From NCBI RefSeq assembly GCF_001719045.1, contig NZ_CP015423.1:1488001-1552000 (forward strand): a stretch of DNA of 64,000 bases, given 5' to 3'. The first letter of the stretch is position 1, and the number at the start of each line of letters is the position of its first letter. Below the pieces are notes generated by a model. That model saw only the letters and a list, made by a program, of their open reading frames with translations, was not told where the DNA came from and searched no databases. Shown here piece after piece: positions 35,831-39,276 of the stretch. The position numbers and the translations under genes are program-made. This DNA comes from Paenibacillus polymyxa. Lineage in GTDB: Bacteria > Bacillota > Bacilli > Paenibacillales > Paenibacillaceae.

Positions 35831-36657
35831 CAGACGTTCGTGTACCCAGAGCGCTGACGATTGCTGGTTCGGACAGTGGCGGCGGGGCCGGAATTCAAGC
35901 CGATCTCAAAACCTTTCAAGAACTTGGCGTATACGGCATGTCGGCTATTACGGCTATTACCGTACAGAATACCTTAGGAGTCCACGGCGTATATCCGCTA
36001 CCAGAGGAAGCAACAGCGGAACAGATCGAAGCCGTAGGATTAGACCTTGGAGTGGATGCCCTGAAGACTGGCATGCTGTTTAATGCCGGCATCATCCGTC
36101 TTGTGAGCGAGCAGATCCGAAAGTTCGGCTGGAAAAAGGTCGTCGTCGATCCCGTGATGATTGCCAAGGGAGGCGCTGAACTGCTGCAGCTGGAAGCGGT
36201 GCAGGCTTTGAAGGACGACCTGCTCCCCTTGGCCCTGGTCGTTACACCGAATATCCCGGAGGCGGAAGCCCTGACAGGGATCAGTATCGATACGATGGAG
36301 GATCGCCGCGAGGCTGCGAGACATATTAGCAGTATGGGACCAAAATTCGTTGTGATCAAGGGTGGCCACGCTGACGAGAGCGAGAGCAGCGGACAGATTG
36401 TTGACCTGCTTTTTGACGGAACCGCCTTTATAGAGCTGAGCGGCAAGCGAGTACGGACTGTCCATACACACGGAACAGGGTGCACTTTCTCGGCAGCGAT
36501 TACCGCGGAATTAGGGAAAGGGATGTCTGTACCGGAGGCTATCTCGAATGGTAAAGCCTTCATCCAGGCGGCGATTGAGGATACGTTGTCTCTGGGACAG
36601 GGACACGGCCCAACCAATCATTGGGCCTACCGACGTCGTCAGGAGATGCTTCTATGA
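35827..36657 (+). CDS. thiD: Hydroxymethylpyrimidine/phosphomethylpyrimidine kinase
   Basis: Two-step kinase making HMP diphosphate for thiamine synthesis. 276 residues, ribokinase fold: [41 protein letters not shown] (catalytic Cys). ATGA overlaps link it to thiM before and thiE after. Confidence 0.96.
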
Positions 36658-37367
36658 GCGGCAGAATATTGTCAGAGGTGGTGCGCCGCCATCTACAGAT
36701 ATACCTGGTGCTTGGAAGCGTGAATTGCCTCGCGGAACCAGTCTGGGTCGTGCAAGAGGCTCTGGCTGGCGGGGCAACCATGGTCCAGTTCCGAGAAAAG
36801 GGTCTCGGCGCGTTAACGGGCGTTCCTATGTTCGAACTCGCGCGCCAGCTACAGGAACTGTGCCGTCACGCTGGTGTCCCCTTCATCATCAATGACGATG
36901 TGGAGTTGGCTCTTGAACTCGACGCCGACGGTGTTCACATCGGTCAGGACGATGAATCCGCCGATTCCGTCCGCGAGCGAATCGGAAATCGAATTTTAGG
37001 CGTCTCCGCCCATACCATTGAGGAAGCACGTCGAGCCATCCTGCAAGGTGCTGATTATCTCGGCGTCGGGCCAATCTATCCCACCATCTCGAAAGATGAT
37101 GCCCATGCCGTACAGGGACCGGCAATTTTATATGAGATGCGTAAAGCGGGAATTGATGTGCCGATTGTTGGGATCGGAGGTATTACAGTGGACCGTGTTG
37201 AGGAAGTCGCACGTGCAGGTGCAGATGGTGTAGCGGTGATTTCAGCCGTGACACAGACAGAGCAGGTTAGAGGTGCGGTCAAGGATTTAAAGAAAAATAT
37301 GGTCTCATTTCTCAATGATCCGATCTACATGTTTGATATTGATTCAACAGATCATCCAGCTTTTTAG
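36654..37367 (+). CDS. thiE: Thiamine-phosphate synthase
   Basis: Joins HMP-PP and thiazole phosphate. ATG 36654 overlaps the thiD stop and has AGGAGATG upstream; the frame runs further upstream but only inside thiD. 237 residues, TIM barrel: MVQFREK, VHIGQDD, LGVGPIYPT, VGIGGIT. The last ~25 residues extend beyond the usual end, and the final 56 bp overlap a small gene on the other strand. Confidence 0.95.
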   Translation: MSGRILSEVVRRHLQIYLVLGSVNCLAEPVWVVQEALAGGATMVQFREKGLGALTGVPMFELARQLQELCRHAGVPFIINDDVELALELDADGVHIGQDDESADSVRERIGNRILGVSAHTIEEARRAILQGADYLGVGPIYPTISKDDAHAVQGPAILYEMRKAGIDVPIVGIGGITVDRVEEVARAGADGVAVISAVTQTEQVRGAVKDLKKNMVSFLNDPIYMFDIDSTDHPAF

Positions 37368-37479
37368 ATTGTTCTATTACTTTGGGATGCGTTAAAAATC
37401 CATACTTTTTCTGGACCTGGTACAGTTTCTTCCTAGCCCTTTCGACACAAAGTAAAGTCACACTTTGATTCATCAGCAT
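37312..37479 (-). CDS. Small Spo0E-family aspartyl-phosphate phosphatase
   Basis: 55 residues, below usual gene-caller limits. The ATG at 37479 (or 37473) has TAGGAGGG upstream. The core KYGFLTHPKVIEQSKKLDDL matches the Spo0E signature (helix, short loop, helix with SQ-E-LD; here SKKLDDLL, so Gln and Glu are Lys). Family members dephosphorylate Spo0A-P and delay sporulation. It ends inside thiE (56-bp antisense overlap). Start and motif make it likely real; the substrate is inferred. Confidence 0.75.
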   Translation of the reverse strand: MLMNQSVTLLCVERARKKLYQVQKKYGFLTHPKVIEQSKKLDDLLNQYQTCRSDH

Positions 37480-37601
37480 GATCCCTCCTATATGTCATAT
37501 TTTATAACAAAAAGACGTTTTTTGGATTTTCGAATGATGCGCCTAACAAAAAAAGAACATCACAAAAGTTTGCATAAACAGCAAAGCCCCAAAATCCACG
37601 T

Positions 37602-37648
37602 AAAAAAGCCTCCGTCCCCCCTAATAAAGCGGGACCGAGGCTCTTTTT
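37602..37648 (-). terminator. Intrinsic terminator after the quorum-sensing pair
   Basis: AAAAAGCCTCCGTCCC pairs with GGGACCGAGGCTCTTTTT. On the minus strand it ends the transcript of the peptide gene at 37693. Confidence 0.85.
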
Positions 37649-37692: not shown

Positions 37693-37815
37693 TTAAGCAC
37701 CTCCAATTTGTACTTGAGGCGTTATTCTTTGATTTTGGTTATGCGACTGAACAGGCATTGATAAAATAAACAAGAAGCTAGCTGCGATGACCAGCAGAAT
37801 CATTTTTTTCAACAT
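37693..37815 (-). CDS. Secreted pro-peptide, predicted quorum-sensing signal (AloP/Phr-like)
   Basis: 40 residues, too short for most gene callers. ATG 37815 follows AAAAGGTGTGG. Lys-rich start (MLKKM), a hydrophobic signal core (ILLVIAASFLFILSM), a signal-peptidase-like PVQS, then a short polar tail ending TPQVQIGGA. This is the layout of Phr, AimP and AloP pro-peptides, whose C-terminal 5-10 residues become the signal. It overlaps the end of the regulator gene by 38 bp in the same direction, which is typical of receptor-signal pairs. Mature form and processing are not known from sequence. Confidence 0.72.
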   Translation of the reverse strand: MLKKMILLVIAASFLFILSMPVQSHNQNQRITPQVQIGGA

Positions 37816-39196
37816 TGTCTAACCACACCTTTTCTAATAGTTTGAAATACTCTTCCCTTGTTTCGGGAAGCGCATGTGCTTGGAAATGTGCAAAAAGTCC
37901 CGTACAGTTTATAAAATAAGTCTCATTATTTAGTATGTGAGCTTTTACCAATGCATATATTAAGTGTTTAAAGCCATCATTGAACATTCCCCGTCTTAAA
38001 TAGTAATAAGCCAGTTCGTAACCAAACCATGCAAAATAATCCGGCATCACTTGTTGGGTGTACATATCAGTAGATTGTGATAGCAGAGCAAAAGAATTAA
38101 TCTCCACTTCAAAACGTGAAAGGACATCATTGATATCTATTGCATATCGGTTAGCAGCTATCATAACGTTCAGCAACTTGGATAGCTTTTCATTCTCGGA
38201 AGTGATTGATGTGGATGCAATATATTCAACATAATGAGGAAGCACATTCGTATCTCCAGATAGGAGTTTATTTACATAAGTATTACCTTCTGCCCAATGC
38301 TTGAACAAGTTGACCCAGTGTTGAGTTTTCTGGTCTGTCTCGATCACCCAATCTAAATCTGCGTAGGCATTTGTAAATTGTAATGCTTGCTGATAATCGC
38401 CTTGGGCTTCACAGACACTCGCACACAGTAAATCAGCATAGGTAATGTACACAAACATCGGGCGACTCAGCCTCTTTTCAGACTCCTCCCACTCTCGCTT
38501 TTTCTGTTGATGTTTCAAAGAATATTGGATCTCCGCTTTGGCTCTCATTTTCCGAGCAGTTGCATCGAGCTTGTCCCATTCACGCAGAGAACGATACACA
38601 TTCGCCAAATCTTTTAACGCATCGAGTTGATCTATTTCATTCAGACGTTCGACAAAGGGTTCAAATCGTGTAGCCGCCTTGAGATTTCGAATCTGATTGT
38701 TACCCACCTGAATGGTAAACATACGATACTGACAGATAGCCAAACGTTCAGAATGCTGGTACTTCTCGCCTTCCGCAATCCCTTCGTAGAGCAACAATGC
38801 AGCATTGTGCTGACCTTGTGCGAATAATTTTTCTGCTGCATCAAATAACTTTGGGGAATATAGAAGGTTGTCCATAATATGTCCCACTACAAGCTGGATA
38901 GCATCCAACTTGTCCAGTTCCGCACAGCGAAACAATAACGGCTCAATTCGCCTCCAATCCGGGGAACGCTCAATGATGTAGTTATCTATGTATAGTTCGT
39001 AAAAAAAACCTTCTGGTAGTCCCATAGCCCAAGTGATTCGATCAAGCTGATGTATAGCAACAGGACGATGCTTGGCAATCCAATTATTAAGTGTTCTTTG
39101 GTGAACACCTGAATGTTCGGCAAATTGTGCCAGCGTCAAATTGTTTTCCCCTAAATAATCCTCTAACTTCGTCAAAATCGTAGGTGTATGTCCCAA
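37778..39196 (-). CDS. RNPP-type HTH-TPR regulator (AloR/AimR-like), predicted peptide receptor
   Basis: 472 residues from TTG 39196, which has AAGGGTGG 7 nt upstream; ATG 39214 is in frame but lacks an SD. Residues ~10-60 form an HTH (LTLAQFAEHSGVHQRTLNNW). The rest is helical with TPR-like repeats, for example AEKLFAQGQHNAALLLYEGI, YRSLREWDKLD, AQGDYQQALQFTNAYAD and YYLRRGMFNDGFKHL. This is the RNPP plan (PlcR, NprR, AimR), and Paenibacillus polymyxa is known to carry many AimR-like AloR proteins with AloP peptides. The peptide gene follows with overlap. DNA targets are unknown. Confidence 0.82.
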   Translation of the reverse strand: MGHTPTILTKLEDYLGENNLTLAQFAEHSGVHQRTLNNWIAKHRPVAIHQLDRITWAMGLPEGFFYELYIDNYIIERSPDWRRIEPLLFRCAELDKLDAIQLVVGHIMDNLLYSPKLFDAAEKLFAQGQHNAALLLYEGIAEGEKYQHSERLAICQYRMFTIQVGNNQIRNLKAATRFEPFVERLNEIDQLDALKDLANVYRSLREWDKLDATARKMRAKAEIQYSLKHQQKKREWEESEKRLSRPMFVYITYADLLCASVCEAQGDYQQALQFTNAYADLDWVIETDQKTQHWVNLFKHWAEGNTYVNKLLSGDTNVLPHYVEYIASTSITSENEKLSKLLNVMIAANRYAIDINDVLSRFEVEINSFALLSQSTDMYTQQVMPDYFAWFGYELAYYYLRRGMFNDGFKHLIYALVKAHILNNETYFINCTGLFAHFQAHALPETREEYFKLLEKVWLDNVEKNDSAGHRS

Positions 39197-39247
39197 GTCA
39201 TAACCACCCTTCATACAAAAAATCCAAATTTTATACTTTCACCTCAA

Positions 39248-39276
39248 ATTATTCACCAAGTTTTAACATGTGTCAA
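39248..39276 (-). promoter_or_regulatory. Promoter of the regulator/peptide pair
   Basis: On the minus strand, TTGACA (39276-39271), a 17-nt spacer and AATAAT (39253-39248). Confidence 0.65.

Follow-up and report, generated by a model that had tools for sequence, protein, structure and literature searches.

In this work we have examined a regulator gene and the very small gene that follows it in a 64,000-nucleotide stretch of Paenibacillus polymyxa DNA, the whole of which is called the window below. Alo quorum-sensing systems were described in this species in 2020 by Voichek et al. (PMC7425212), and no larger sets of paralogous quorum-sensing pairs than those of Paenibacillus were known at that time (PMC7425212). 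If the pair in the window is one of many, how do near-identical channels stay apart? We addressed this question by the covariation of receptors with their peptides, which names candidate residues and signals for each channel and each orphan receptor.

Organization of the locus

The receptor gene aloR lies on the minus strand at 37778-39214 and encodes 478 residues from the ATG at 39214. The true start is probably the TTG at 39196, since most aligned paralogues begin at that point, and the resulting product of 472 residues fits the length of about 472 given in the original prediction. A promoter, TTGACA-17-AATAAT (39248-39276, minus strand), matches in 11 of 12 letters; the scan as a whole gave 5 sites against 6.3 in shuffled sequence, but of the 22 upstream regions that were aligned, 18 had the box, as TTGACA or TTGACG. 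A LacI-type regulator gene lies upstream on the same strand, and thiE (36621-37367, plus strand) converges from the other side. Alignments of the thiE product to close relatives stop at residue 228-234 of 248. The helix-turn-helix attributed to the receptor is present at its N terminus, with a Pfam HTH_3 score of 23.1 bits that barely reaches the cut-off of 23, and the one TPR match (TPR_7, 19.3 bits) is below its cut-off of 27.9. NCBIfam gave one weak match per protein, and the best PHROGs match was a general transcriptional regulator. Sequence searches against solved structures returned 0 matches for the receptor alone and, for the receptor alignment, 22 weak matches to helix-turn-helix proteins and one antibody chain, with no TPR receptor among them.

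Is the small reading frame at the end of aloR a real gene? The frame, aloP (37693-37815, minus strand), encodes 40 residues with the tail QVQIGGA, and its overlap with the 3' end of aloR on the same strand is exactly 38 bp (37778-37815), as originally predicted. The ribosome-binding site ascribed to it is AAAGGTG at 37832-37826 (minus strand), within aloR, and AAGGTGTGG precedes most related aloP starts. The putative secretion signal agrees with an N-terminal hydrophobic helix (mean hydropathy 3.0 across 11 residues). The rho-independent terminator thought to close the gene corresponds to a hairpin at about 37601-37648 (minus strand); the 81-nt stretch 37670-37590 folds with -35.5 kcal/mol (z -6.5), 0 of 200 shuffled sequences were equally stable, and the hairpin was absent from the output of a simple terminator scan. 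That such a gene is easily missed in annotation also seems right: AloP had 3 matches in about 5.8 billion proteins, although this search depends on words of 5 letters common to query and target and has little power with so short a peptide.

For comparison, 66 of 100 loci were kept (identity above 55%, peptide start near the receptor stop, no N; L142 and L143 excluded). The same -38 offset was found in 62 of these 66 receptor-peptide pairs, and counting from the peptide end there is a G at -3 in all 66 and at -2 in 65, the last letter being A in 46, F in 12, S in 5 and another in 3. It could be argued that the frame exists only because the 3' end of aloR is conserved and that it is no working peptide gene, as its first 12-13 codons fall within aloR. 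We consider this extremely improbable, because outside the overlap, beyond codon 14, the frame is under purifying selection (pN/pS 0.33 in 85 close pairs, with changes mostly at third codon positions), the G-G near its end is constant, its length range is narrow and its tail tracks receptor residues, as described below. Alo peptides are moreover real elsewhere, since published mass spectrometry of the medium detected fragments of 9 of 14 AloPs (PMC7425212). The observations of the original prediction are confirmed, and its interpretation as a receptor with its own signal peptide is supported.

Relation to known systems

As had been proposed, sequence comparison places the locus among the AloR/AloP quorum-sensing pairs of the known Alo family. 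The window receptor has 143/445 identities (32%) with AloR13 over its residues 7-446 of 478, or 92% of its length, which lies above the published homology threshold for AloRs of at least 30% over at least 80% (PMC10075063). AloR13 was located through the published AloP13 pro-peptide, which matched in G025 (100%), G026 (96%), G007 (83%) and weakly in G045, with no match in the other 3 genomes searched, our own genome among them. The AloR13 gene is followed by aloP13 and then by an ORF that looks Spo0E-like. In its own 5.76 Mb genome the window receptor is one of 21 AloR-like places. A large protein set yielded 1046 receptor matches, and among the 120 matches listed those with a named organism were from Paenibacillus, the exceptions being two assemblies named 'Bacillota bacterium' and one metagenome from compost.

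With the published Alo systems the locus shares a receptor with a helix-turn-helix and a putative TPR-like part and a pro-peptide gene with a signal sequence that overlaps the receptor gene or lies directly behind it; a C-terminal signal of 6 residues (known for some AloPs and predicted here), a spo0E-like gene behind some of the pairs and many paralogues per genome are common to both as well (PMC7425212). It differs in that its peptide ends in GGA and not in HGRGG, and in that it occupies a variable site, where it is missing from G025, the bearer of the published AloP13. The AimR/AimP arbitrium of Bacillus phages has the same order of receptor, peptide and regulated gene, and AloR and AimR stand in one clan of a published structural tree (PMC12700828), a link that is a published grouping and not a sequence comparison. 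In contrast to phage-carried AimR, the window locus is found among bacterial metabolic genes, between the LacI-family gene and thiE and in the same chromosomal place in relatives, and its probable target is spo0E rather than aimX. Rap/Phr and PlcR/PapR combine a secreted pro-peptide, re-import of a short peptide and a TPR receptor (PMC7425212), as is proposed below for the window locus. Rap works as a phosphatase and not as a DNA-binding regulator, and no Rap/Phr or PlcR/PapR chain was among the matches in our sequence searches of solved structures. The ComS/ComR systems of streptococci have fewer pairs per genome. They belong to another subfamily and were the subject of an earlier study of receptor-pheromone coevolution in an RRNPP member (PMC8605241).

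A prophage or plasmid origin of the window locus was considered and is unsupported by its neighbours. Elsewhere, AloR relatives do occur on mobile DNA, with 34 records from plasmids, 2 from phages and 21 loci on viral contigs. Those of the viral contigs (L260-L280) often come with an aloP. In Brevibacillus phage SecTim467 (L286) a putative Spo0E gene lies just 5' of the AloR relative, and a 45-residue hypothetical protein overlaps its end. On two Paenibacillus plasmids (L282, L285) aloR is followed by a Spo0E-family gene, with AbrB-type genes adjoining, as if such plasmids bore their own sporulation timer. Two receptor ORFs of our own genome, L017 (G000:C1:5169285-5170079) and L019 (G000:C1:2570907-2571686), have 285 and 306 residues and match AloR residues ~190-466 only, yet overlap a signal-peptide-like ORF; they may be receptors without the helix-turn-helix (Rap-like) or truncated ones.

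The locus in related genomes

When the region beside the LacI orthologue was read in 14 related genomes, an aloR was found after LacI in 7 of them (G027 97%, G063 78%, G060 76%, G018 73%, G059 72%, G062 64% and partial, G045 56%). G008 retains aloR residues 1-145 only, in G013 aloR is displaced by ~7 kb, and no aloR was seen beside the LacI orthologue in G025, G026, G019, G061 and G007. In a quick tree the receptors of G027, G060, G059, G063 and G018 form one 10-row clade with the window receptor, and those of G062 and G045 fall outside it. The tails at this place are QVQIGGA (G027 and our own genome), RDQIGGA, LVQHGGF, QVQIGGS and QEQIGGA, which is the conserved frame with a variable tail that had been foreseen. 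The expectation that relatives retain the pair intact failed in part: the G063 receptor is without its N terminus, the G062 peptide is unreadable, and some relatives, whose receptors end in LFYY, are orphans with no detected aloP (L005, L116, L117, L118, L128, L129, L135, L144, L146, L147, L148, L150, L152 and L090). L005 is an orphan of our own genome (G000:C1:5123055-5124395), and orphan receptors are known in these families (PMC7425212).

Covariation of receptors and peptides

We asked which receptor residues change together with which peptide residues in 69 pairs, using as null model labels evolved along the receptor tree in 300 simulations. Receptor columns after 460 were omitted and letters were grouped (F/Y/M/L/I, I/V, D/E). 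The columns named here were reached in 0 of the 300 simulations. Position -1 of the peptide covaries with receptor residues 255, 249 and 251 (z 17-18) and with 304 (z 14), -4 with 346, 350, 342 and 310 (z 16-22), and -6 with 396 and 393 (z 17-18). The highest value belongs to -5 and residue 315 (z 31), where Q goes with N in 41/41 and T with Y in 22/22, other letters being mixed in 6. At -7 no receptor column was significant (best family-wise p 0.17 in the 69 pairs). Since covariation reaches -6 and is not found at -7, the mature signal is probably the hexapeptide VQIGGA (codons at 37696-37713, minus strand), and the data support the view that the window receptor reads the last six residues of its peptide. 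The proposed recognition residues (249, 251, 255, 304, 310, 313, 315, 342, 346, 350, 393 and 396) span codons 249-396 of aloR (38027-38470, minus strand). Their order along the receptor is broadly the reverse of that of the peptide positions, and 342, 346 and 350 have helical spacing; the reverse order would fit a peptide lying along the superhelix.

Could such a pattern result from shared ancestry, or from gene conversion that moves the receptor end and the peptide as one block, and not from contact? The two genes adjoin, the paralogues seem to recombine, and in a quick tree the orphans ending in LFYY sit in two separate clades, as would be expected from recombination. We nevertheless regard this explanation as improbable. 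The strongest columns are not those nearest aloP, for -1 tracks residues 249-255, ~650 bp away, and the stretch 395-454 gives just 0.08-0.11. The result holds (z 10-43) when the tree is built from the N half alone or from a C half stripped of the code columns, and the peaks of the different peptide positions fall in different receptor segments. The changes also make physical sense: a large end goes with Gly, Thr or Ala at 255, an acidic -6 with Arg396 and a Gly at -6 with Glu393. Furthermore, the code columns predict the peptide better than the nearest relative does at -1, -4 and -6 under all four identity limits; for -1, when neighbours above 80% identity are left out, they are right in 119/126 cases against 63/126 for the nearest relative. 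At -5, predicted from its one column with close relatives allowed, they are worse (89/126 against 105/126).

In pooled rows, which include near-identical ones, the misfits number 5/125 for -1/255, 2/123 for -4/310, 3/126 for -5/315, 11/126 for -6 with Q393 alone and 1/88 for S/Y304. Sign tests on independent pairs, which are of low power, gave median p values of 0.02, 0.06, 0.06, 0.04 and 0.016 in the same order. The loci of the GG class, as we call pairs with this peptide end, that miss the rules are L131, L273, L086, L115, L263, L205, L209, L195 and L212. Contact between the receptor and its own peptide is the reading that we follow below.

Rules and their application to further loci

The associations were worded as rules: V at 255 goes with A or S at the peptide end and G, A or T with a bulky end; A at 310 goes with H, Q or N; N at 315 goes without T; and at -6, Q393 with R396 goes with D or E, and E393 with R396 goes with G. 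Peptides were read at L001-L019, L034-L050, L095-L154 and eight loci beside LacI orthologues; loci after L050 of one batch of at most 30 and the fragments L020 and L021 were left out, and copies were removed (L034 = L081, L035 = L082, L037 = L086, L039 = L084). In the counts of set 1, the plasmid loci and set 2b, loci with no ORF found, with a broken or cut ORF or without G at -3 were unusable.

In set 1 (65/86 usable) the rules were right for 315Y in 22/23, 315N in 40/40, 255V in 50/50, small 255 in 15/15, 304Y in 5/6, 304F in 44/44, 310A in 26/26, other 310 in 38/38, 393Q+396R in 25/25 and 393Y+396W in 29/30. At the plasmid loci (5/5 usable) 22/22 applications were right. In set 2b, with 43-53% identity (35/60 usable), the counts were 1/1 for 315Y, 31/31 for 315N, 22/24 for 255V, 9/9 for small 255, 5/5 for 304Y, 17/19 for 304F, 6/7 for 310A, 25/27 for other 310, 11/11 for 393Q+396R and 15/15 for 393E+396R with G. 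Set 2 is no clean test, because both it and set 1 had been viewed by the time the rules were written, but the rules were fixed before a third set, made up of viral-contig loci and additional plasmid loci, was fetched.

The 27 loci of the third set gave 28 receptor entries; of these entries 5 had already been seen and L286 was omitted, so that 22 were unseen, of which 14 were scorable, and several of its pairs are near pairs of set 1. Here 56 of 61 applications were right (255V 7/7, small 255 6/7, the 304 rules 2/2 and 5/5, 310A 4/5, other 310 9/9, 315N 9/9, 315Y 3/5, 393Q+396R 6/7, 393E+396R 3/3, 393Y+396W 2/2), and a single distant-class row, L278, accounts for 3 of the 5 misses. The rule of 393E with G was derived from set 2, and its support in the third set is limited to these 3/3. 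Extension of the code to distant AloRs (37-45% identity, HGxG peptides) was tried and failed: of 40 loci 8 could be scored, and the rules were right in 1 of 27 applications, with four of the misses having a Trp end outside the letters of the rule. The code is therefore a property of the GG class and not of all AloRs.

The Spo0E-like gene and a candidate operator

What might the receptor control? Behind aloP lies a gene that the original prediction had omitted, a Spo0E-like phosphatase gene of 55 codons (37312-37479, minus strand; PF09388 at 49.2 bits, cut-off 23) with the ribosome-binding site AGGAGG at 37489-37484, which overlaps the 3' end of the convergent thiE (thiE ends at 37367). In our genome 5 of 8 Spo0E-like genes lie on the same strand as an aloR and ~0.25-0.4 kb after it. 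For alo13 a reporter assay showed that the receptor activates spo0E and the peptide silences it (PMC7425212), and by analogy spo0E is the probable regulatory target of the window receptor. It may instead be that the receptor regulates something else, its own operon or distant genes, and that the spo0E promoter is independent. The terminator stands between aloP and spo0E, and a spo0E match was seen neither in ~0.7 kb flanks of a 48-row sister clade nor at the same-locus relatives L083 and L084. With the alo13 precedent, the repeated position of spo0E behind an aloR and an element that is conserved where the -35 box of its promoter would be, we consider such independence rather unlikely and spo0E the better candidate.

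This element, CCAAAA-N7-TTTTG (37508-37525, minus strand), is directly 5' of the -10-like TATAAA (37506-37501) of spo0E. CCAAAA occurs in 15/15 chosen spo0E upstream regions and the whole pattern in 9/15, and the copy at spo0E is the sole exact match within the window. With modest confidence we propose it as the candidate site of AloR. A genome-wide regulon based on this candidate was dropped, as the longer pattern with up to 3 mismatches had 50 matches against 27 for the reversed control.

A proposed mechanism and possible separate channels

Taken together, we think it very probable that the locus is a three-gene Alo quorum-sensing module with VQIGGA as signal, spo0E as output and a modular peptide code. 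According to this model, aloR and aloP would be co-transcribed from the promoter at 39276-39248, AloP would be exported through its signal sequence and cut outside the cell to the C-terminal hexapeptide VQIGGA, and this would return to the cell (in known systems through Opp) and bind in the TPR groove of AloR. By analogy with alo13, peptide-free AloR would activate the downstream spo0E and bound peptide would switch it off, so that at high density, we propose, Spo0A phosphatase is lowered and sporulation favoured. Which peptide is bound would be set by the code, residues 249/251/255/304 reading -1, 310/342/346 reading -4, 315 reading -5 and 393/396 reading -6. The locus in this way points to sporulation control through Spo0E.

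Our genome holds six GG-class peptides, four of which, VQIGGA (L001), VQIGGF (L002), VQHGGA (L003) and VQHGGF (L004), combine two letters at each of two positions; ATHGGA and DQQGGA complete the six. The receptors of L001-L004 match their peptides, residues 249/251/255 being either LRV or TNG/TGG and residues 310/313/342/346/350 either G-Y-E-K-V or A-I-D-Q-I. Repeats of a hexapeptide within a genome were 2 among 65 pairs against 5.3 expected (16 genomes, P 0.053), a hint that the sharing of signals is avoided. It seems fairly likely that GG-class AloRs are modular readers, in which four patches assort independently and each read a single position of a hexapeptide whose GG core is constant, and hence that a genome can run several separate though closely related channels.

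The covariation code appears to be the new part of this work, the locus itself being of a known family. Among the records listed by a literature search, with most subscription papers and preprints outside its coverage, none was by its title or abstract a study of AloR specificity, and the main text of PMC7425212 contains neither 'specificity' nor the strings 'covari' and 'coevol'. If the code is true, the signal of an AloR could be read from its sequence, orphans included, and the code residues of orphans would predict the signals that these receptors might overhear, for L005 a signal of the form (D/E)-Q-(I/V)-GGA. Specificity could then be rewritten with few residues, and insulation, eavesdropping and re-targeting would become testable by single exchanges in Bacillus subtilis reporters.
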